A DNA stretch of 42,418 bases, from positions 1 through 42,418 of IMG/VR virus record IMGVR_UViG_3300035698_009238; one strand, written 5' to 3'. The stretch comes from a virus. Below, piece after piece: positions 9,077 to 42,372 of this stretch (its first letter is position 1; every line of letters begins with the position of its first letter). A program made the translations under genes and the position numbers. A model generated the notes under the pieces. The model ran no database searches. It saw nothing but the letters and a program-made list of their open reading frames with translations, and was not told the origin of the DNA.

Positions 9077-9116
9077 GCGAAGCAAGAAGCTCCCCGATGA
9101 ATCGGGGAGTAGCTCA
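9077..9116 (+). other. Hairpin resembling an IS200/IS605 right end
   Basis: Between two tail genes. Plus strand GCAAGAAGCTCCCCGAT then a stem partner ATCGGGGAG and TAGCTCAC. The stem is 9090-9098/9101-9109 (9 bp, perfect, 2-base centre). The layout AAGCTCCC...GGGAGTAG(T/C)TCAC recalls the right ends of IS200/IS605 family elements and the 3' end of TnpB guide RNAs. The upstream gene's stop codon (9114-9116) lies inside it. No transposase or TnpB gene is nearby, so this is at most a remnant; a plain intercistronic hairpin is the alternative. Confidence 0.35.
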
Positions 9117-17236: not shown

Positions 17237-17758
17237 TTACAACTCTTCCGCAAGTTCCCAGTAACTATCGTCTGTATCGCGATAGAGCGGGATCGTAACG
17301 TCCATAACGGCTCTGCTTCCTGCTGAAAGAATCAGTCCGGGCAGCCCCGGCATTCCACCTGCAGCAATCCAAAACTGTATCTTTTTCCCGTTATCCGCTC
17401 GCGTACCTTCCAGAAGGTATTCGCGCGCAAGGTCAACGTCAACGGCGGTGGCAGTCATTGCCCACTTGTTGGCATCTTCTTTAGCCGTCGATCTCAGTGA
17501 TGCACTCGCAGCAGACAAACCAAGCAAAGCCATGTATGTATCCGGATCGAATGACATCTCCCCGATAGTCACAGATGATGTCATTTTCATAACCTGCGGA
17601 TCGCCTTCAACTATCTTCTGGCTGAAGCGAGTGGATATTTCCATAGAAGAATTCAAGACAAAATTGCCCTCGAATTCTCCCAATTCAGTCGATGCAGTAG
17701 TAACATCAGCAGCAGCGGAGTAAATCGTTCCGCCCTTGATATAAAATGAATCAGCCAT
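17237..17758 (-). CDS. Major tail tube protein
   Basis: 173 residues, rich in beta strands (FEGNFVLNSSMEISTRFSQK, MKMTSSVTIGEMSFDPDTYM, SRAVMDVTIPLYRDTDDSYW), right size and place for the major tail protein, between the tail terminator-like gene and the chaperone genes. It forms the stacked rings of the tail tube. No added Ig-like domain is seen. Confidence 0.75.
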   Translation of the reverse strand: MADSFYIKGGTIYSAAADVTTASTELGEFEGNFVLNSSMEISTRFSQKIVEGDPQVMKMTSSVTIGEMSFDPDTYMALLGLSAASASLRSTAKEDANKWAMTATAVDVDLAREYLLEGTRADNGKKIQFWIAAGGMPGLPGLILSAGSRAVMDVTIPLYRDTDDSYWELAEEL

Positions 17759-18202: not shown

Positions 18203-18577
18203 TTACAGCTTCTTAGCCATTCCCAAAACCTGCGTATCCCAATCATAGACCGCCGTCAATGAGTACGCCTCATCTCCATCATCATCAGCTTCAACCGTAT
18301 CGCCAACCAAAACAGCAGTATCTTTCAGGAAAAAGATCACGTACTTCGCCTCTTCTTCTAAGCCTTGTATCAATTCCTTCAGCGAACCGCGCTGAATTGA
18401 TGCAGGTTGAATATCGCATTTGATATTCTGTAAGGCTTCTGGGGCTGACCATGTGATGTCCGGATGTCCGTAATCATCCTGATCGCCCTGTGCCTTTCTC
18501 TTGACGTTGACATACTGAAACCCAACATCAAGCCACATTTGTGGCAACTGGTCTTTGTCTGAATCTGATAATGACAT
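18203..18577 (-). CDS. Head-tail joining protein
   Basis: 124 residues from ATG 18577; a longer frame begins at 18628 but overlaps a micro-gene, and the text before MSLSDSDKDQ is not protein-like. The middle (IKCDIQPASIQRGSLKELIQ) and end (VLVGDTVEADDDGDEAYSLT) resemble the small beta-barrel of phage head-closure/stopper proteins. It stands in the right place between connector and tail terminator genes. Ribosome site weak. Confidence 0.6.
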   Translation of the reverse strand: MSLSDSDKDQLPQMWLDVGFQYVNVKRKAQGDQDDYGHPDITWSAPEALQNIKCDIQPASIQRGSLKELIQGLEEEAKYVIFFLKDTAVLVGDTVEADDDGDEAYSLTAVYDWDTQVLGMAKKL

Positions 18578-18578
18578 T

Positions 18579-18647
18579 TTAATTTCCCATAGGAAAGAGC
18601 TGCACCATCTGGTCGAATGATGCAGCATTGGTCAAATCGTCAAACAT
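18579..18647 (-). CDS. Micro-gene, 22 aa
   Basis: MFDDLTNAASFDQMVQLFPM plus two residues. GGAGG (18660-18656) lies 8 bases upstream of ATG 18647; another ATG at 18653 is too close. The stop is one base before the start of the joining gene, so translation could be coupled. It may be a leader peptide for the gene downstream. Unproven. Confidence 0.3.
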   Translation of the reverse strand: MFDDLTNAASFDQMVQLFPMGN

Positions 18648-18679: not shown

Positions 18680-21514
18680 CTATTTTCCCTTTTTATACAG
18701 TACCAATCCCGCCAAATCATGCGGGTCAACGGAATCTACCATTATAGGACATGGCAGCCTTTCGCCCATCGTCCACTTGCTCTCTGTGAAAACTTGCCAG
18801 TACATCTGCTCAAGCAATTCCGCTTTGTGAATAACAAGCCATTTGTTGACATCTTCCCTGTTAAAGATTGTGCAGGGGTAATAATTTTTCGATCCATAAC
18901 CCGCATCTGGATCAGCGTAAACGTTATCCACATGCTCTGATTCGTTATATGGGAACGTGAGCATCAGCAACCCTCCGGGCTTCAGCAGCCTGAACATCCC
19001 CGCAATGGCAGCATCAGCATCGGTGATATGCTCAAGCACGCTGATACAGGTAATCGCATCAAAGGATTCTGTCTCAAGATCATCAGGCTTTTGAATATCA
19101 ATATCCAATACTGCCCAATGCCGGTTGAAAACAGGCTTTTTCCAATAGTCTTTGACGTTATCTATTGCCGTAACATGATACCCGCACGTTTTCAGGATCG
19201 CAGGGAAAGCGGTCAGCCCCGTTCCGACATCAAGAATCCGCTCAACGTTTGGCATACTCGCAAGGGCTTCAAGCGTAAATGCATATTCAACCGATCTCTC
19301 ATTCCGCTTGATCTTCTGCTTTGTGAATTCTCTTGCGTTGATCTTCTGAATTCCATCTTGAACGGGATCCATGTTCTTCGCCTGCTTTCTCTGTTCAATC
19401 AGCATCCGGTACAACCCCACCAACGCGGGGATTTCGTCTTCAATATAGAATTCCTTCATCGTATTGTCTATGTTCCGAAGTTCCTCCAACCTTTCTGGAA
19501 CTTCCGAAATATCATCATAGACAATGCCCAACTCATAGCGAGTGATAACGTGCGCCAATGCCGCTGTATTCGCCGATATGACAGGGAGATCGGCTGCAAC
19601 GTAATCCCATAGTTTGTTGGCAATAGCCAAATCCAGAAATCCCTTTTCCGAGTTCTGAATATTCCACGTTATCAGCCCCGCATCATACTGTGAGATTTCC
19701 GGTATCAGGTCGGCAGCAGGAACCGGATTGTAATACCTGATCCCTGTAGTCTTTGCTGCCAATGCTCTGTATTCCGGCTCATCTCTGGACGGCTGAATAT
19801 GTACCACAACGCCCTTGCTTGCCAGATATTCAAAGATGCCTTTCATCTCCCTGTGCAGGAGACCGAAAGCGCCGACATAGACGGCATGGAATTTGCCATC
19901 ATCTTCAGACAGCTTCGGAAGCCGCTTTTCAGACACATTCGCTCTGCTAATATAGTTCGGGATGATAACTGACGCTGTGGCGTCGATCCTATATCCTCTC
20001 GATGCGACAAGCATCTGTTCTGGCGTAACATACACTCTGCCATCACATCGGCGATTAGCAATAACAGCATTCGCACCCTTGTCTGGATTGTTGGGATGCC
20101 GGAGTTCAACTGGATCATGGAAATCGGCAACCACTATCGCATCAGGGCAGAATTCCTTGATCATGACCGCGTGGGCATCAGGCTCATTGCTGCAATGGAT
20201 GATGTCATACAGCGGGCAAAGGCGATATAGCTGCTCATTAGATTTAACTCGTATCTGTTTCCTGAAACACGACATATCCATGTAGGGGTAATCTGAATCA
20301 GATGCCTTCGTCCACCAAGCGAGGTCGACATGATGTCCCAGATCGGACAACGCCTTCGCTGTTTTCCACGTCCTATGGCAAATATTTGGCTGAACCATCA
20401 ATACCCGCAGCGGCTTGCCCTCGAAGCCATACGCGGCAAGGGCACTCTGGTAGCGTCTCATATACTGTATATCTGCATCAATTCTCAACGCTCTCTGTAA
20501 TGCAGCAACAGCTTTTTGCGGCTCATTCATCTCGATCAGATGCGTTCCTGCTGCATAATATGCCCGACCTGCTGACCCCCACGAATCAATAGTTATCCCT
20601 ACTGGCTGCCCTGTCTCCTGCATTTGCTGAAGCAGTACCAGAAATCTGTTGTAATGTTTAACCGCTTTCTCATGCTGCCTGTCTATGCCATATGCAAGAG
20701 CAAGATTATATATGCCATCAAGATTTTCGGGGTAGTACTTCAGGAATTCCACGCCCTCGTCAATAGCCGCCCGATAATCCCCGATTTGCGTCAATGCGTT
20801 GATCTTGTCAACGATGATCCTCTGATATGAATTTGCCGTATAGGTCGCAGCATGTACCTGCACCAAAGCATCAAATTCATTAGCCTCAGCAATAGCCGAT
20901 CCATATCCTTTCTGGACTAACAGATTTCGCACCAGATTGGCGACATAAAAAGACCGCTTGCCCTCTTCGGCGATTTGTTTCCTAAGTAGCCGTTCGGTTC
21001 GTTCGTATTTAGCCGCCAATTTTTCAGGGGAAAGGTTGTATCCAAAATGCTGAATCCGGACAGGGAAGAAAGCTTCCTTGCCCTCGAATATAGGCTGATT
21101 GTGGACGATGCCCTCGTAATGAATCGCATCTTTCCGGAAAAGTCTGTGTCCCGTTCCCATGCTGATACCATTCGGCGTTTCATTCAAAACGCCAAAACCA
21201 ACAGCAACCGCATCAGATTCAACCGCTTCTTTGAATACTGAGTGATCGTCGGGATGTAACCTTTCGTCAGCGTCAATAATAAATACTTTATCCGAAGTCG
21301 CCTGAGCGATTGATATGTTTCTCGCTTTGGAGAAATCATCACGCCATGCCCAATGATGAATAATTGCGCCCTTTTCCTTTGCGATCCGGACTGTCCGATC
21401 CTTTGACCCCGTATCGAGAAGGATGATTTCGTCTACAACGTCCTTGATGCTGTCTATGCAACCGCCTATTAGTTCTTTTTCGTCTTTTGCTATGATACAT
21501 GCTGAAACAGTCAA
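18680..21514 (-). CDS. Glycosyltransferase GT2 - TPR - GT-B - methyltransferase fusion
   Basis: 944 residues, start TTG at 21514 with AGGAG seven bases upstream. Residues 1-110 are a family-2 glycosyltransferase (ACIIAKDEKELIGGCIDSIK, LLDTGSKDRT, FIIDADERL with the DxD metal motif), similar to the SunS type. About 200-360 are TPR-like helices (YNLALAYGIDRQHEKAVKHY). About 365-690 look like a GT-B enzyme (LRVLMVQPNICHRTWKTAKA, LAIANKLWDYVAADLPVISA). About 755-944 are a SAM methyltransferase (RILDVGTG, FDAITCISVLEHI, LLKPGGLLMLTFP). It is placed among virion genes, so capsid or tail decoration is likely; the substrate is unknown. All three enzyme cores look intact. Confidence 0.85.
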   Translation of the reverse strand: MTVSACIIAKDEKELIGGCIDSIKDVVDEIILLDTGSKDRTVRIAKEKGAIIHHWAWRDDFSKARNISIAQATSDKVFIIDADERLHPDDHSVFKEAVESDAVAVGFGVLNETPNGISMGTGHRLFRKDAIHYEGIVHNQPIFEGKEAFFPVRIQHFGYNLSPEKLAAKYERTERLLRKQIAEEGKRSFYVANLVRNLLVQKGYGSAIAEANEFDALVQVHAATYTANSYQRIIVDKINALTQIGDYRAAIDEGVEFLKYYPENLDGIYNLALAYGIDRQHEKAVKHYNRFLVLLQQMQETGQPVGITIDSWGSAGRAYYAAGTHLIEMNEPQKAVAALQRALRIDADIQYMRRYQSALAAYGFEGKPLRVLMVQPNICHRTWKTAKALSDLGHHVDLAWWTKASDSDYPYMDMSCFRKQIRVKSNEQLYRLCPLYDIIHCSNEPDAHAVMIKEFCPDAIVVADFHDPVELRHPNNPDKGANAVIANRRCDGRVYVTPEQMLVASRGYRIDATASVIIPNYISRANVSEKRLPKLSEDDGKFHAVYVGAFGLLHREMKGIFEYLASKGVVVHIQPSRDEPEYRALAAKTTGIRYYNPVPAADLIPEISQYDAGLITWNIQNSEKGFLDLAIANKLWDYVAADLPVISANTAALAHVITRYELGIVYDDISEVPERLEELRNIDNTMKEFYIEDEIPALVGLYRMLIEQRKQAKNMDPVQDGIQKINAREFTKQKIKRNERSVEYAFTLEALASMPNVERILDVGTGLTAFPAILKTCGYHVTAIDNVKDYWKKPVFNRHWAVLDIDIQKPDDLETESFDAITCISVLEHITDADAAIAGMFRLLKPGGLLMLTFPYNESEHVDNVYADPDAGYGSKNYYPCTIFNREDVNKWLVIHKAELLEQMYWQVFTESKWTMGERLPCPIMVDSVDPHDLAGLVLYKKGK

Positions 21515-21558
21515 TGCAGGTCTCCTTTCTGCTTTATCCTATCCGCCGATATGATCTT

Positions 21559-21810
21559 TTACCCCTCAAAGTATTTCGGGCTTTCATCTTTTCCCTCTGG
21601 CTGCAGGTCTGCTATCTTATCACGCAGTTTGATGTTTTCTCTCTGCAACTTTACTAATTCAGCCGATACTTTTGTATATTCATCAGTTATTTTTTCTATT
21701 CCTCGTCTCAAGGCGAGAGTTTCAATCCTCAGTCTTGACATTACCTGTTGCACTTCCATGTATTGCTCTTCTGTAACAGGATCGGCTTTTGTCCATTTTT
21801 CTTCTAGCAT
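21559..21810 (-). CDS. Small coiled-coil protein, 83 aa
   Basis: Nearly the whole length is helical with heptads (TLALRRGIEKITDEYTKVSA, ELVKLQRENIKLRDKIADLQ). AAAGGAG precedes the ATG. It stands directly upstream of the large glycosyltransferase gene and after the connector gene. It could be an oligomerising partner of either; no family recognised. Confidence 0.65.
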   Translation of the reverse strand: MLEEKWTKADPVTEEQYMEVQQVMSRLRIETLALRRGIEKITDEYTKVSAELVKLQRENIKLRDKIADLQPEGKDESPKYFEG

Positions 21811-21822
21811 AATATTCTCCTT

Positions 21823-22386
21823 TTATATTACTAATCTGCCCGAAACAGCACCGGATCGCTTATCATGATCCTTCGCCATCTCGGTATAATCGTAATGAGT
21901 GTAACTGACCCCGCCTCTGTCCCACCGTTTAGCTTTGTGCGGGTCTTTGGCAAGCTGTCTCATGCAGTCTGCCAAAACAGCATGAATATCATAAGAATAA
22001 GCATCGAGGTAATATACATCTCCCTCTTGATCTGCATCCCACCGGAAGACGCCCTGCATCAGATTGAAATTGTCAGGAGTTACAGCAGAAGCCCCATCAT
22101 CAGCACCATCCCATATGTTGATGCATTCGTTAGCATCCCCCGCGCCTGTCCATTCTGTTGTTCCAGAACTGACAGCGGATGATGTCGTTGCTCCTTCCAT
22201 GAATCTATACTGCGACCGGAAGACTCTCTCAGTCGGGTCTTTTGACAGCTTCTCTCTGGAAACATACCGGCAATGGAGATCAAGTATCCTCTGTAATTTA
22301 TCATCAGCCCAAACTTCTGAGTCTTCATCATGTGCTTCCATCCGAAGATGGATCAGTATCCATGCCATTGTCGATCTCGCTGCCAT
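21823..22386 (-). CDS. Head-tail connector (adaptor) protein
   Basis: 187 residues from ATG 22386, chosen for the ribosome site AGGAGG; the frame extends further up through a terminator-like hairpin (translated Gly/Pro runs) and is not coding there. The C-terminal part (DIHAVLADCMRQLAKDPHKA, RWDRGGVSYTHYDYTEMAKD) looks like helical gp6-type adaptor proteins. The middle is Asp/Gly-rich. The position after the capsid genes supports a connector role. Confidence 0.55.
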   Translation of the reverse strand: MAARSTMAWILIHLRMEAHDEDSEVWADDKLQRILDLHCRYVSREKLSKDPTERVFRSQYRFMEGATTSSAVSSGTTEWTGAGDANECINIWDGADDGASAVTPDNFNLMQGVFRWDADQEGDVYYLDAYSYDIHAVLADCMRQLAKDPHKAKRWDRGGVSYTHYDYTEMAKDHDKRSGAVSGRLVI

Positions 22387-23010: not shown

Positions 23011-25272
23011 CTAAGTGTTTGCGCCAACCATGCCAAACCAAGTCACACCGTCGCAGAATACCATTGCACTTTCGTTCTGCCCTATCGTGACGACAGTTGC
23101 AGGTGCGTCGTCCTGAACGGTAATGTCTTCAGCACCACCAGCAGCGTTCGCGATAATAAAGACCAGTCCTGCAGAACTGGCTTCAGCCGGAAGCGTGATC
23201 GTTCGCGCGCCGTCCGGATCAATGAACTGAAGCATGTAATCAGTGATCAGAAGCGTCCTGTTTCCGCTAAGCGTCTCCGTGTTGGCATCATGGAACCAAA
23301 CACGCCCGGAAAGCTTTATCGCACCGTCACTGACAAGACTCAGACTGGCATCAGCGTCTGACTGGATGTAGATAGCCGTATCCCTGAACTGAAGCTTGCT
23401 AATAGTTTGCATTTCGATGGTTGCAGTAACGTCCAACTCGTCATTCGTCTGATCCCACTTAATCATCTTGCCGGTAGACGCACCGTACAAACGGAGATCA
23501 ATACCATGATCGTCTTGACCGAGATCAAAGGTATTGCCGGACACGTCAAAGTAGATGTAATCATCAGCCGTAGCACCAAACCACTGAAGGTCAATGCTCT
23601 CTGTCCCATCACCAACGGTCATCAGCTCGTCATCAGCAGCAGCGGTGATCGCAAAGTCCGCCCCGTCGAACTGGATAACAATATCCTGCGCGTCTCCGAA
23701 ACTAAGGTTGTCGGCATCCAGCAGGTAAACGTCGATCCCGTTGGCGGTCAGAGTGTTTCCAGAAGCGTCGATGGCAATAGAATCGCTGGCAGTGTTTCCG
23801 TACCATATCAGGTCAAAGCTGTTAGTGCCGTTTCCGACCTTAATCACCAAGTCGTCCTTTACACCAGTAATGGTGAAATCCGTTGCGTCGAACTGGACAA
23901 CTACATCCTGACCATCACCAAAGGAGATATTGTCAGCATCTTCCATGTAAACATCTACACCGTCGAAGGACAGCGTTTTCGCGGAAGCATCAAAGATGAT
24001 ATTATCAGCAGCCGTTTCGCCATAAATCCAGATGTCGAATGACTGCGTACCATTACCAAATTTAAGAATGGTATCATCAGCAGCGGGAAGGATGTCGAAG
24101 TCAGTGACGTCCCACCTCATGTAGACGTCGCCGCCAGCCGTCCCGCCAAACTCCAGAACATCGTCATCACCCATGTGCAGATCAATATCTTCAAAGTCAA
24201 CCTGATCGTTGGTAACGTCGAAATACACATACTTGGCAGCGGCGTCTGCGTACCAGTACATATTCCATGATACCACACCATCACCAAACTTCAGAGCGAG
24301 CTCGTCAGTCCCCGGCACGATAACGAAATCAGTGCTGTCAAACGCTATCTCAACATCTGACCCATCGCCGAGATAGATGTAGTCGCTGTCACCCATAAAG
24401 AGATCGACAGCGTCAAACGTCACCTTATCGGAACTGGCATCAAACTCAACGGTATTGGCGACTGTTTCGCCATACCAAATCACGTCGAAATCATTCGTGC
24501 CATTACCGATGTAGATTACCAGATCATCAGATGCGCCAAGAATATTGAAATCAGCAGCATCGAATATCAGCGTTATGTCGCCGGAATCGCCAAACTCTAT
24601 CTCATCGTTATCGCCGAATCTGGCATCAGTATCCTCGAAGTATACCTTTGCGTCACCAGCGTCAAATTTGACATAGTTTGTTGCAGCAGTACCATACCAC
24701 CAGAGGTCAAACGACAGCGTACCGTTGCCAAACTTAAGAATGGTATCATCAGCAACGGGAAGGATGTCAAAGTCCGTCGCATCCCAACGCATCTGAATAT
24801 CTTTCGCGTCGCCAAAGTAGAGAATGTCGGCATCCTTCAACCAGAAATCTACGCCATCAAGCGTCAAAAGATTGCCCGAAGCGTCAAAGGCGATCAGGTC
24901 ATTCGCTGTGTTGCCATATACGTTCAGATCAAAAGATTTCGTTCCATTGCCGACATTGATAACCAGATCATCAGTACCGGCATTTATATGAAAGTCAGTT
25001 GCATCGAATATGAAACCGACATCGGAGCCGGTTCCAAAATATTGGGCAACGTTATCATCTCTGTTTTCAGAGATAGTACTGGGGATTACCAGCGACGTTC
25101 CGGAAATGTATATGTCGTGGTACGCCCCACCGGAATCCTCAAGTTTAAGTTTATTGCCATATCCGATCTTGATGTCATTATCAAAACCGTCTTCAAAGCC
25201 CTCTTTTATCAGTCTTATATTGCCCTTCGATATCAAAGGATCGAGGACATCTGTCATATCTCTTGCAGACAT
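23011..25272 (-). CDS. Seven-repeat beta protein, candidate head fibre or decoration
   Basis: 753 residues. About 75-600 hold seven repeats of roughly 74 residues, each of the form FGD..D....FDATDF.I....DD....GNGT.SFD..WYG.TA.....FDAS, rich in Asp, Asn, Gly and aromatic residues. The C-terminal 120 (RVWFHDANTETLSGNRTLLI, ITLPAEASSAGLVFIIANAA, SAMVFCDGVTWFG) form a different domain of the kind that ends phage fibres. The gene lies between the major capsid gene and the connectors, far from the tail fibres. That suggests a capsid-borne fibre or decoration; a tail fibre is the alternative. Confidence 0.7.
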   Translation of the reverse strand: MSARDMTDVLDPLISKGNIRLIKEGFEDGFDNDIKIGYGNKLKLEDSGGAYHDIYISGTSLVIPSTISENRDDNVAQYFGTGSDVGFIFDATDFHINAGTDDLVINVGNGTKSFDLNVYGNTANDLIAFDASGNLLTLDGVDFWLKDADILYFGDAKDIQMRWDATDFDILPVADDTILKFGNGTLSFDLWWYGTAATNYVKFDAGDAKVYFEDTDARFGDNDEIEFGDSGDITLIFDAADFNILGASDDLVIYIGNGTNDFDVIWYGETVANTVEFDASSDKVTFDAVDLFMGDSDYIYLGDGSDVEIAFDSTDFVIVPGTDELALKFGDGVVSWNMYWYADAAAKYVYFDVTNDQVDFEDIDLHMGDDDVLEFGGTAGGDVYMRWDVTDFDILPAADDTILKFGNGTQSFDIWIYGETAADNIIFDASAKTLSFDGVDVYMEDADNISFGDGQDVVVQFDATDFTITGVKDDLVIKVGNGTNSFDLIWYGNTASDSIAIDASGNTLTANGIDVYLLDADNLSFGDAQDIVIQFDGADFAITAAADDELMTVGDGTESIDLQWFGATADDYIYFDVSGNTFDLGQDDHGIDLRLYGASTGKMIKWDQTNDELDVTATIEMQTISKLQFRDTAIYIQSDADASLSLVSDGAIKLSGRVWFHDANTETLSGNRTLLITDYMLQFIDPDGARTITLPAEASSAGLVFIIANAAGGAEDITVQDDAPATVVTIGQNESAMVFCDGVTWFGMVGANT

Positions 25273-25561: not shown

Positions 25562-26620
25562 TTATCCCATTGTGAGCTTCTGAATCAGCACGCAGGCATT
25601 GATATTCTCTATTGCTACATCAGCGCGCAGCGAATAGAAGAAATAGGTTGCCTCATCGGCGGCTTCCCTGCTTCCTTCGATCTTTATATCCCGCTGTATG
25701 CCAACGATCAGATTGCCCTTCGGAGTCAACAAACTATCGGTGTAGCTGGCTCCGCCATGTATGCCACTCCCATCCAGCGTTGTAGACATCAGCGGGACAT
25801 CCGTTATCGGAACTCTGCCGAACTGCAAGGCTCCCCCACCGATAATGGCATTATCACCAAGCACGGTGGATCGTGCAGCCAGAGCGTCAACGTAGTCCTG
25901 CGATACCTGATCGCTTTGCAGGAACCTGAGATTTGCCATTCCTACCTGTTTATACTTGGCATCCAGATTTCTGAGAGCATCAGAATACTTGAATTCCCAG
26001 TTGTAGGGAATGGATGAATTCTGTGCAGCAATCGCACCTGCAATATCAAAATCAGATGTAGCGTCCAGAAGGACAGCAGATCCAGAAACGTCATTCTCAT
26101 AGGTTTCGCCACTGGCGGAATGTGTGATCCGGTATCGCCAGCCGTCAAACAGCGATCTGATGTCCGTACTGGCAAAACTGCTCAGGGAGTGCGTATCGCC
26201 AATCCAGAAGGCTTCTTCCAACTCATTGGCGATCTGCTTAGTGACCATGCGCATCACATGGTCTGCAAAGGCATCGCCTTCAATATTGTCCTCAAGGTCA
26301 TCATCATAAATGACAACAGCCCCGCGTACCTTCTTGGATGTTAGCTCTATTTTGTTATCAGCCAGTGTCTTTTTGTAGTCGGATGCGCTGAAGGTAGAAC
26401 CCGGATGCAGGAAGGCTGTAGAACCAAGCCCAAGCGCGCGGATGTTCTTAGTCGGCTTCGCCATACGAACGATTCGTGCAGCATCTTTCAATCGAGATAC
26501 ATCCACTATGTAATCAATGAACCTGTCAGCCTCTTCCGCTGAAAGAGTAGTACTGGGCAGCGCCACCATTTTGGTGAACTGCTCTTTAGACTTGAACAGG
26601 AGGTGCTTATTGGTAAGCAT
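25562..26620 (-). CDS. Major capsid protein
   Basis: 352 residues from ATG 26620, preferred for AAGGGGTGAA upstream; ATG 26650 has no such site. Features of HK97-fold capsid proteins: an N-terminal arm, LTSKKVRGAVVIYDDDLEDN (E-loop/P-domain like), HVMRMVTKQIANELEEAFWI (spine helix) and RVPITDVPLMSTT near the end. It follows protease and scaffold genes, the standard order. It builds the icosahedral shell. No inserted domain is seen. Confidence 0.85.
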   Translation of the reverse strand: MLTNKHLLFKSKEQFTKMVALPSTTLSAEEADRFIDYIVDVSRLKDAARIVRMAKPTKNIRALGLGSTAFLHPGSTFSASDYKKTLADNKIELTSKKVRGAVVIYDDDLEDNIEGDAFADHVMRMVTKQIANELEEAFWIGDTHSLSSFASTDIRSLFDGWRYRITHSASGETYENDVSGSAVLLDATSDFDIAGAIAAQNSSIPYNWEFKYSDALRNLDAKYKQVGMANLRFLQSDQVSQDYVDALAARSTVLGDNAIIGGGALQFGRVPITDVPLMSTTLDGSGIHGGASYTDSLLTPKGNLIVGIQRDIKIEGSREAADEATYFFYSLRADVAIENINACVLIQKLTMG

Positions 26621-26695
26621 GAAATGTTCACCCCTTTTTGCCAAAGGCATTTATTGTCAATCGTCAACTATCAGCCATGATGGTCAGTCAGGCTG

Positions 26696-27584: not shown

Positions 27585-28235
27585 TTATACCATGACAGCC
27601 GTTCCTGCCATAGAATAGCCAATCAGTTCACCAGACTTGATCTGCTGCCAAACTGAATCATTTACTATGCGAGAGATAAGCACCCATGACCCTTTAGGAA
27701 TTTTCTGTGCCTGCAATTCAAAATCAACAGGGGCAAGATATGTCTCCAAAACATGAGCATTGACTTCCCCGCCAACGTGATTGACCTTGAAAAGCTGCAA
27801 GTCTTCCATAAAGGAGTAGGCGGCTTCCCTGATGTCTTCCTCTGTTGCGAAGTCTCCATGCGCATCAGTTTCAGCAGGCGCATAAACGACTCCGGCAACA
27901 ATCCTTTCGTCTTCGGTCTTCGATATATTGATGATCTTTGCCGTCCGCTCAAAAGCATATTCAGGCTTCTGGCTTTGCTGTATCTGCTCAAAAGCAGTTT
28001 TTGCTTTGCTAATCCGGACAGCATCATCAATATTCCTATCAATAGCAGTTTTCTTGAAACTCAAATTGCGCGCTTCCATTACTTCCCTGATCATGGCATA
28101 TTGCTTCAGGATGGTCTCTCCCTGACCCTTCTGCCATATCTGGACACAGCGCATCCTCAGACCATGCAACTCATGATCTGCCTGTCCTTTGATGATGTCT
28201 GCTGACAAGCCCTCTATCTTGACTTTCATAATCAT
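27585..28235 (-). CDS. XkdF-like prohead protease
   Basis: 216 residues. Residues of about 90-215 match the XkdF/Peptidase_S78_2 domain: ERIVAGVVYAPAETDAHGDF, LFKVNHVGG (likely catalytic His), LAPVDFELQAQKIPKGSWVL and SGELIGYSMAGTA (likely catalytic Ser). It would cleave the scaffold and perhaps capsid arms in head maturation. The usual end of the domain is missing and is found at the start of the next gene. The N-terminal 85 residues are helical. The start overlaps the previous gene (ATGA). Confidence 0.8.
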   Translation of the reverse strand: MIMKVKIEGLSADIIKGQADHELHGLRMRCVQIWQKGQGETILKQYAMIREVMEARNLSFKKTAIDRNIDDAVRISKAKTAFEQIQQSQKPEYAFERTAKIINISKTEDERIVAGVVYAPAETDAHGDFATEEDIREAAYSFMEDLQLFKVNHVGGEVNAHVLETYLAPVDFELQAQKIPKGSWVLISRIVNDSVWQQIKSGELIGYSMAGTAVMV

Positions 28236-40097: not shown

Positions 40098-40658
40098 TTA
40101 GATTCTAGCCATTTGGAATTCTTTTTGCTTTTCCTCGTTGCACATTAAAGGAGGCAGTTTATATTCTATCCCCATCCCCGCCACATCTTTTAGTGGCACG
40201 AGGCTGATAAGTGTAAGGTATCCCTCGTTTTTAACTGACTTCGGAATCAATTCCTTGTAGTTCTCAAGACACCATCTGACGTATTGATCGGAGTGGAAAA
40301 TATACGCTACATCCCATTTTGGCACGATAAAAGCTATTCGATCGGCATGATCTAGCGTCAACCCCCAACCAACCTTTCCCGCTTTGTCGGTATATGCCTG
40401 CGATACCGTTTCAAAGGTAATGTTGCCTGTCCTATTCGTATTGAAATCAGTCTTAACCTGCATTGCTATTGGTTGCGTTCCGTTTGTTGGATATATCCAG
40501 AGATCAATTCCTTTGTTTTTGTCATCGTCATAACTAGCTCTTTCCACTCTTTCCACTTCAGGCATTGATTCCAATAACCCCATCAATCGGTCTTCATAGG
40601 GCTTGCTTGCCTGCATCCTCTCGTGGAAATCGTAAACAGGCTTGTCTGCAAAACTCAT
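40098..40658 (-). CDS. PD-(D/E)XK-type nuclease
   Basis: 186 residues. GIDLWIYPTNGTQPIAMQVK holds D52 and Q67-x-K69, the D...(E/Q)xK catalytic pattern of restriction-type nucleases; the preceding helix (YEDRLMGLLESMPEVERVER) is also typical. The start has GGAGG and lies inside the end of the methyltransferase gene (65-base overlap), so the two are translated together. The pair suggests a restriction-modification-like unit or anti-host nuclease; the target is unknown. Confidence 0.65.
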   Translation of the reverse strand: MSFADKPVYDFHERMQASKPYEDRLMGLLESMPEVERVERASYDDDKNKGIDLWIYPTNGTQPIAMQVKTDFNTNRTGNITFETVSQAYTDKAGKVGWGLTLDHADRIAFIVPKWDVAYIFHSDQYVRWCLENYKELIPKSVKNEGYLTLISLVPLKDVAGMGIEYKLPPLMCNEEKQKEFQMARI

Positions 40659-42372
40659 TATCTACCTCCATTAGTAAGAATTCTCTATTTAGATTGTGTG
40701 CGGCAACTCCCGTAGATCCCACACCAGCAAACGGATCAACCACAAAGTCCCCAACATTGCTTGATATATTGACAAGCCATTCCATCAAAGCCACTGGCTT
40801 CTGTGTTGGATGCTCAAGCCGCTCATCGCCCTGACAGATAGGCATCTCGATAAAGTTGTGCGTCTCGTTTTGCCCCTGCCAGTTGAATGTATACTCATCG
40901 CTTACACTGGCAAAGAGTATATACTCGCACGAATGGCAGAAGCACCGCTGCCTGACCGATGGCGCTGGATTGGTCTTGTGCCATGTTATCAAGTTGCGAA
41001 CAATAAAGCCCTGCGCTTCCAGTTCTGCCCACAAGTTACCTATCTCTGAATCCGGCACAAAGATATAGAGCGAAGCTGTCTCTTTCAGCACGCGCCGGAA
41101 GTGCTGCAGCCACTGCTTATAATTCGTCTCGTGGTCCCATTCGCCCTTCGGCACGGACATATCCTCTCTATGGTCAAACTGGATGTCGGCTGTCTCGCCT
41201 AGACCATACGGCGGATCGGCGAGTATCAAGTCAACAGAATGTTTTGGTACTTCAAGCATTATGTCATTCATATCGCCGCACCTGATATGTCTATCAAGGA
41301 ATGACTTGTGTTGAACTTGAAGTGCCAGTCTCGTGCGGTTCTCAACCTCTTCGGCTGTAAGCTCCGGCAGCCACCTCTCGCCGCCATCCTGATTCGCTTT
41401 GATATGTTCTGCGGTCTCCTGCCCGTATTCCTCTATAGTCTTTGCTACCAACGGATGGTCTTTCTTGACTTTCTCGATAAACCTATCTCTGGCGCGGTAT
41501 TCAAATTCTACAGCCATATGCTTCCTGTAGACTTGATGGTCTTCTTCTTTTATTTCATCAGTGCGCTCAAAGTTATATAATACAGCGGTCTCCGGCAACG
41601 CTTCCACCCACTCGTCTATGGCGTTGAATAGAGATTGATAATTACCAGCCTTCTTCCCTTTGTTTTTGCACGCTTCCGTATAGATGGAAGCCATGTCATA
41701 GCCGTAAGTCTCGCGGTCAAGTGCTTTTACCTTACCGGTTGCCGTCTTGGCATTGGCGACTGTCCAATTCTCAACTTCAGCCTGCTCGCATAAAGCGGAC
41801 CATGCTGCTTCCGGTGCTTTGGAAATTTCATAAAGTGTCTCGACCGGTAAACTGACCCGAATCGGGTCAGTTTTTATGACTTGGTAAGCATCAAAATACC
41901 TCTGAATTGTAGAAAGATTATAGTTATGCCTGCGCGCATATTCTCGCAAACCGCTCTCATTCCCGCGCCCATCTTCGCCCTTACCATACCTCTCGATATG
42001 GTCATACGCATGTTTGCCCTTCTCCAGTGCGGACAACTCTGCTTGGTCATTCTCTAGCAGCAGAAGGCTGTGCGCTTCCTCATCCGACATATCAGCCGCT
42101 ATCCATGCGTATGGCGATACGCCCGCTTTTTTGCACGCTTCCACGCGGTGATGTCCTGATACTATCTCATAATGCCCGCTTACCGGACGCACAAGGATAG
42201 CGTGCTCAGGCTTGTAGCCGTATTCCCCTATCTGCACCGCTATCCTCTCCACCACTTCTTCATTTACGGCAAATCTCGGATTCAGAGGATGTGGCTCGCA
42301 TTCGCCTGCTGGTATCCTTGCCAATACAGCTTTTTCATATTCCTTGTGATTAAACAAATCTAGTTGATTCAC
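40594..42372 (-). CDS. ParB-like domain fused to DNA methyltransferase
   Basis: 592 residues, GTG start at 42372 with AAAGGAGA. N-terminal 110 residues are a ParB/Srx-like domain (AVNEEVVERIAVQIGEYGYK, IVSGHHRVEACKKAGV). A HTH-like part follows (LREYARRHNYNLSTIQRYFD). The C-terminal 230 hold a beta-class N4/N6 methyltransferase: DLILADPPYG (motif IV, about 380) before DPFAGVGSTGVAA (motif I, about 543), the order of that class. It probably marks phage DNA. Codons 160-197 are copied at 3633-3746. Confidence 0.9.
   Translation of the reverse strand: MNQLDLFNHKEYEKAVLARIPAGECEPHPLNPRFAVNEEVVERIAVQIGEYGYKPEHAILVRPVSGHYEIVSGHHRVEACKKAGVSPYAWIAADMSDEEAHSLLLLENDQAELSALEKGKHAYDHIERYGKGEDGRGNESGLREYARRHNYNLSTIQRYFDAYQVIKTDPIRVSLPVETLYEISKAPEAAWSALCEQAEVENWTVANAKTATGKVKALDRETYGYDMASIYTEACKNKGKKAGNYQSLFNAIDEWVEALPETAVLYNFERTDEIKEEDHQVYRKHMAVEFEYRARDRFIEKVKKDHPLVAKTIEEYGQETAEHIKANQDGGERWLPELTAEEVENRTRLALQVQHKSFLDRHIRCGDMNDIMLEVPKHSVDLILADPPYGLGETADIQFDHREDMSVPKGEWDHETNYKQWLQHFRRVLKETASLYIFVPDSEIGNLWAELEAQGFIVRNLITWHKTNPAPSVRQRCFCHSCEYILFASVSDEYTFNWQGQNETHNFIEMPICQGDERLEHPTQKPVALMEWLVNISSNVGDFVVDPFAGVGSTGVAAHNLNREFLLMEVDNEFCRQACLRFPREDAGKQAL
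41782..41895. repeat. 114-bp direct repeat, copy inside the methyltransferase gene
   Basis: Codons 160-197 of the ParB-methyltransferase gene, identical in all bases to 3633-3746. It contains the inverted repeat at 41849-41873. If the molecule is circular the two copies are only about 4.2 kb apart, and recombination could remove the left control region. Confidence 0.95.

Follow-up and report, generated by a model that had tools for sequence, protein, structure and literature searches.

The present study describes an intact gene for a soluble, long single-chain enzyme that joins two sugar-adding modules and one methyl-adding module, located among the connector genes of a virus record of 42,418 bases (GC 46.5%), referred to here in its entirety as the window. 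Most probably the enzyme is expressed late and O-glycosylates a virion protein, after which the glycan is extended and capped by methylation. Support for this comes from sequence and gene position, i.e. the modules and their motifs, a colinear relative in another phage, and glycan genes that recur in the same slot; from these we infer substrate, linkage, sugar identity, order of steps and late expression.

Results

The open reading frame, complement(18680..21514), is open over 944 codons and begins with TTG at 21514-21512 on the minus strand, 7 nt downstream of AAGGAG at 21527-21522 (Table 1). Its GC content (47.2%) and GC3 (50.2%) are like those of neighboring genes, and no membrane anchor was detected in the 944-aa chain, in which the highest 19-residue hydropathy was 1.41. 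The first-pass annotation had described a 944-residue frame with three enzymatic modules, and this was borne out, with donor and cofactor motifs intact. Its placement of the gene in the virion operon also stood but required refinement, as the gene is on the minus strand in the gap of the connector between adaptor and head closure protein Hc1 rather than simply between capsid and tail genes, and an 83-aa frame at 21559-21810 intervenes between adaptor and enzyme, which corrects the gene order given earlier.

Table 1. Features of the enzyme gene, its neighborhood and related loci (window coordinates unless a locus is named)
Feature	Position	Strand	Evidence
GT2-TPR-GT-B-methyltransferase, whole ORF, 944 aa	18680..21514	-	ORF call, Pfam, start/SD sequence
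Shine-Dalgarno AAGGAG, 7 nt 5' of TTG start	21522..21527	-	sequence
GT-A / GT2 module, residues 1-162; D34-T-G-S37-x-D39, D81-A-D83 (DxD), H138, H156	21029..21514	-	Pfam, PDB matches, invariant columns
TPR module, residues 163-345	20480..21028	-	Pfam TPR_1/TPR_2, helical model, homology to flagellin-linked GT2-TPR
GT-B module, residues about 366-712; donor-side motif NKLWDYVAADLPV at 633-645	19379..20419	-	weak family matches, model, L116 homologue
Class I SAM methyltransferase, residues 745-944; LDVGTG 761-766, D785	18683..19282	-	Pfam, motif positions
83-aa small ORF, own SD, between adaptor and enzyme	21559..21810	-	sequence
Head-tail adaptor, 187 aa from internal ATG	21823..22386	-	46% to L116:6402-6956; 2e-3 to Mae-JY09 gene
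Head closure Hc1, from likely internal ATG (18577)	18203..18577	-	phrog_501 7e-4 (weak); aligns with L116:9759-10121
Probable major tail tube protein, possible substrate	17237..17758	-	position; 32% identity to L116:10728-11252
Major capsid protein (MCP)	25562..26650	-	phrog_1623 1e-58
Asp-rich repeat protein	23011..25272	-	repeats in sequence; relative in L018; absent from L116
Long protease precursors	L009:4388-8656, L022:5541-8873, L034:5561-9052, L036:4417-8109, L049:4333-8145, L025:5734-9033		

The N-terminal part has the two features of the GmaR/SunS type, a GT2 domain with nucleotide-binding Asp and DxD and, right after it, TPR/helical repeats. The Pfam Glycos_transf_2 match (4e-17) covers residues 4-108; among solved structures GmaR was closest by sequence (3e-21), followed by SunS (2e-14), and by fold the model matched ThuS (7msk) and SunS (7msn) best (E 4e-20). 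The score for the SunS family itself (NCBIfam TIGR04195) was 65.9 bits, far under the curated cut-off of 350. The TPR_1/TPR_2 matches (1e-5 to 4e-5) are under the Pfam cut-offs; the region is predicted as all-helical repeats with pLDDT about 90, and is homologous to the TPR of flagellin-linked cellular GT2-TPR proteins. In a set of 199 Planctomycetota genomes, the top matches span residues 2-366 with 31-37% identity (E as low as 3e-59), and D34, D39, D81, D83, H138 and H156 show no variation across the phage enzyme and the flagellin-linked proteins. Three of the five best Planctomycetota genomes carry tandem GT2-TPR genes immediately before flagellin, fliD-like and fliS-like genes, names that were read by eye from sequence. 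In L104, L107 and L108 (Planctomycetota) flagellin is immediately preceded by a tandem run of two or three GT2-TPR genes, an arrangement that suggests stepwise flagellin glycosylation.

Pfam gave nothing for residues 366-712, but low-scoring similarity to structures of Gtf3 (2e-4) and to PRK09814 (2e-7), an AlphaFold model (pLDDT 68, pTM 0.67) of GT-B fold, Foldseek PDB matches that were, among those listed, all GT-B glycosyltransferases except for one GT-B-fold epimerase (best E 8e-10), and direct matches of the homologous L116 domain to Glyco_trans_1_2 and Glyco_trans_1_4 together identify a GT-B domain resembling GT4-like enzymes and Gtf3/GtfC. It scores about 30 bits for the Gtf3 / PRK09814 family, under the curated cut-off of 420 (PRK09814.2-3), and the Foldseek list is headed by PimA, so that the likeness to Gtf3 does not fix family or specificity. 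Fold matches to O-GlcNAc transferase and SPY are not taken as homology, since TM-scores were low and the matches reflect the order of TPR followed by GT-B. The C-terminal module (residues 745-870, or 745-944 when counted to the end of the chain) matches Methyltransf_23 (7e-15) and Methyltransf_11 (2e-13) in Pfam and was poorly modelled in structure prediction.

Direct whole-protein search found no full-length relative in phage records, plasmids or short-peptide scans of viral and genome contigs; the GT-B module alone had no match in phages, and a tail-tube scan gave none. Two phage relatives from IMG/VR, L116 and L126, were detected only by a profile scan with the GT2-TPR part. In L116 the gene order is scaffold, MCP, adaptor, GT2-TPR-GT-B, methyltransferase, Hc1 and tail genes, with a GT2-TPR-GT-B protein of 744 aa (35% identity over 725 aa, E 4e-133) and a separate methyltransferase of 201 aa as the next gene. 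Downstream of its Hc1 are homologues of window genes 17772, 17237, 16845 and 16363 and of the tape measure, in the same order. The L116 capsid protein (phrog_1328) is unlike that of the window, so the enzyme travels with the adaptor-to-tail module rather than with the capsid. L126 has GT2-TPR-GT-B-GT-B-methyltransferase on one chain of 1192 residues, beside or behind genes called as head genes from sequence and order, without family match, and followed by further methyltransferase and GT2 genes. A search for the same domain order in other phages, proposed in the first-pass annotation, was thus answered by L126 on one chain and by L116 with the methyltransferase as the adjoining gene. Similarity among the methyltransferases of these two loci and the window is only weak (E about 2e-5), so this module may have been recruited independently. 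Of the 80 loci found by profile, 12 carry a homologue of the window tape measure on the same strand, less than 7 kb downstream of the GT2 gene. At L139, L140, L143, L144, L146 and L175, GT2 genes of 394-409 aa directly precede the tape-measure gene with a gap of 3-32 nt.

Among the neighboring genes, the adaptor resembles a gene of Microcystis phage Mae-JY09 (2e-3) that directly precedes the annotated head-tail adaptor of that phage. No family match was found for the product of 17237..17758. An 11-bp hairpin with a weak T-run lies at 18599-18626 on the minus strand, in the interval from the enzyme stop codon to the probable start of Hc1 at 18577 (-19.7 kcal/mol over a 66-nt stretch, z -3.4); it could possibly be an attenuator or processing site, and because of it co-transcription of the enzyme and tail genes is not certain. 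The Asp-rich repeat protein behind the MCP is common to the window and L018 (L018:5341-6117) and is probably a head fibre or decoration protein. Elsewhere in the window, at 40594-42372 on the minus strand, a ParB_N domain is fused to an N4/N6 DNA methyltransferase.

The MCP family of the window is shared by 72 loci. In one clade of these MCP relatives (support 100/99), a glycan cassette occupies the interval between adaptor and Hc1, containing MptE-like/sialyltransferase-like, cupin, GT2, Glyco_trans_1_2, methyltransferase and sulfotransferase genes, with an epimerase and a PIG-L deacetylase in addition in L042. Within 30 records, 11 of 12 GT2 places were within 9 kb after the MCP (binomial 2e-7, descriptive only, the places being non-independent within one clade). 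Single-chain proteins also occur in the place of the cassette, i.e. MptE-GT9 chains of 880-895 aa at L027:13099-15741 and L037:5514-8201. The window and its nearest MCP relatives fall outside the cassette clade, and in these relatives the gap is free of glycan genes, so that the window most likely gained its enzyme independently. In Mae-JY09, which has another MCP, a GT-B gene and a sugar epimerase gene stand between MCP and adaptor. The window's adaptor and Hc1 were not matched by the corresponding profiles from the cassette phages, and equivalence of the slots therefore rests on PHROG matches, L116 and Mae-JY09.

MCP-related phages also carry a protease precursor of 1080-1420 aa in which a class I methyltransferase and an ATP-dependent DNA ligase precede a C-terminal XkdF-like capsid protease; judged by eye, a stretch close to the N-terminus is nucleotidyltransferase-like. 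L009 adds a D12 DNA methyltransferase, and in L025 a beta-lactamase fold replaces the methyltransferase, while the window protease (27585-28235) retains the N- and C-terminal parts only. The enzymes inside these precursors could be cut free and packaged.

Discussion

The proposed mechanism begins with an enzyme that would be made late, together with the virion proteins, a timing suggested by gene position. The TPR solenoid would hold the substrate protein, and GT2, with its GmaR/SunS-like active site, would attach a first sugar, probably through an O-link to Ser/Thr; the GT-B module, of GT4/Gtf3-like fold, would add a further sugar, and the methyltransferase would cap the glycan by O-methylation. 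We infer this order, i.e. GT2 first, GT-B second and methylation last. With all three modules on one chain, the intermediate would stay close at hand, much as on a small assembly line. The first-pass annotation had suggested that a protein is glycosylated and its glycan extended and capped by a methyl group, and this idea is supported, as are the modules, their intact motifs and the placement in the virion operon. The same annotation had named the Asp/Asn-rich repeat protein (23011-25272) as candidate substrate, which finds no support because that protein is missing from the L116 stretch of enzyme, adaptor, Hc1 and tail genes and its Ser+Thr content of 13% is ordinary; no substrate stands out by Ser/Thr content across the window virion proteins. 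Adaptor, Hc1, tail tube and tape measure are common to the window and L116. The tail tube would be a better guess than the repeat protein, being shared with L116 and a known target in cluster O mycobacteriophages. Further candidates among the virion proteins are the MCP and a lectin-like protein at 9114. S-linkage is unlikely on MCP, repeat protein or tail tube, with one, one and zero Cys, respectively.

Several known systems are comparable in part. GmaR of Listeria is a GT2-TPR protein that adds GlcNAc to flagellin (PMC9638930), and like the window enzyme it has an N-terminal GT2 followed by TPR with conserved DTGSxD, DxD and His residues (PDB 22ao), but it continues with linker and antirepressor domains whereas the window enzyme continues with GT-B and methyltransferase. 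The peptide S-glycosyltransferases SunS and ThuS share GT2 plus a helical domain and are the best fold matches; however, the window enzyme is far under the SunS cut-off and no bacteriocin precursor was seen. Gtf3 carries out the second step in building a protein glycan, the addition of glucose to GlcNAc already bound to protein (PMC5207161), and Gtf3/GtfC of serine-rich-repeat adhesin glycosylation (3qkw, 9htx) have the GT-B fold and donor-side motif, with weak sequence similarity to the window module. L116 has the same modules in the same gap but with the methyltransferase split off and another capsid protein, and L126 is likewise a single chain beside head genes but contains one more GT-B and is accompanied by additional methyltransferase and GT2 genes.

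In mycobacteriophages, virion glycosylation has been described for Che8, cluster F1 and cluster O (Freeman et al. 2023, as cited through PMC11600133, PMC11256854 and PMC12619734), and in cluster O an O-methyltransferase and glycosyltransferases modify capsid and tail tube (PMC11600133, citing Freeman 2023). The likeness is in the phage-encoded glycosyltransferases and O-methyltransferase, which in the mycobacteriophages decorate virion proteins (capsid, tail tube). Mycobacteriophages have separate genes (in cluster O, three tandem glycosyltransferases and a methyltransferase), in contrast with one chain in the connector operon of the window, and a cluster F1 phage has its glycosylation genes near the 3' end of the genome. 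No mycobacteriophage was among the matches listed by tblastn of the phage collection. The window thus has the phage-encoded glycosyltransferases and associated methyltransferase of this class, fused here and adjacent in L116, and a location with virion genes, between adaptor and Hc1 in both, which is a supporting and not a required trait.

The enzyme could instead modify flagellin, S-layer or wall glycan of the host during infection, for example to block superinfection. Its nearest cellular relatives are linked to flagellin, alteration of host surfaces by phage glycosyltransferases is well established, and a soluble cytosolic GT2-TPR protein could reach flagellin before export. This is unlikely, however, given that the gene lies within the connector operon, that several phages whose capsids differ also have glycan genes there, that neither a membrane anchor nor a Gtr-type partner is present, and that late expression, as suggested by position, would leave little time for surface remodelling. 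Glycosylation of phage DNA in evasion of restriction has precedent in phage glycosyltransferases that hypermodify DNA (cited in PMC12619734), but it is very improbable for the window and was dropped because no hydroxymethylase or base-modification gene was present in the scanned window frames apart from one ordinary DNA methylase; in addition, the nearest structures are peptide or protein glycosyltransferases and the gene sits in the virion operon, away from replication genes. The modules, the slot and the relatives together favor a virion protein over host surface or DNA.

The gene could also be cargo at a tolerated insertion point, with no role in the virion and a position due to chance or a hotspot. 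That the slot is mosaic, with no glycan gene there in the MCP-related clade A phages, and that a hairpin with T-run follows the gene would both be consistent with cargo. We nevertheless consider it improbable, as the GC and GC3 match those of neighbors, the same enzyme at 35% identity is kept in the same gap of L116, GT2 motifs are intact, and recurring content of the slot is specifically glycan enzymes, including unrelated ones. Because several unrelated phages keep sugar-modifying genes at the same place, decoration of the particle is the probable outcome, and the earlier remark that structural operons rarely hold such enzymes was too strong, since they recur there in related and unrelated phages alike.

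An O-methyltransferase is already a known part of phage virion glycosylation. As far as could be searched, what is new is the single-chain GT2-TPR-GT-B-methyltransferase, the colinear relative in which the methyltransferase is split off, and the repeated presence of glycan genes in the connector gap; no account of a glycan slot between adaptor and Hc1 was found in the literature searched, with subscription literature mostly outside the search. A broader proposal, put forward tentatively and at somewhat short of even confidence, is that in many uncultivated tailed phages the gap between adaptor and head closure serves as a dedicated "glycan island", filled independently by single-chain enzymes or by cassettes of glycosyltransferases, MptE/sialyltransferase-like proteins, sulfotransferase, methyltransferase, sugar epimerase and deacetylase, which would glycosylate virion proteins. 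Phage virion glycosylation affects antibody recognition, and to our knowledge it has been demonstrated in few phages. A single chain able to initiate, elongate and cap a protein glycan, if that is what the enzyme does, would be a useful soluble tool for glycoengineering. A fixed, recognizable gene slot would allow virion glycosylation to be predicted from sequence in uncultivated phages, and if the glycan-island proposal is true, virion glycosylation would be common and variable in tailed phages rather than an oddity of mycobacteriophages.
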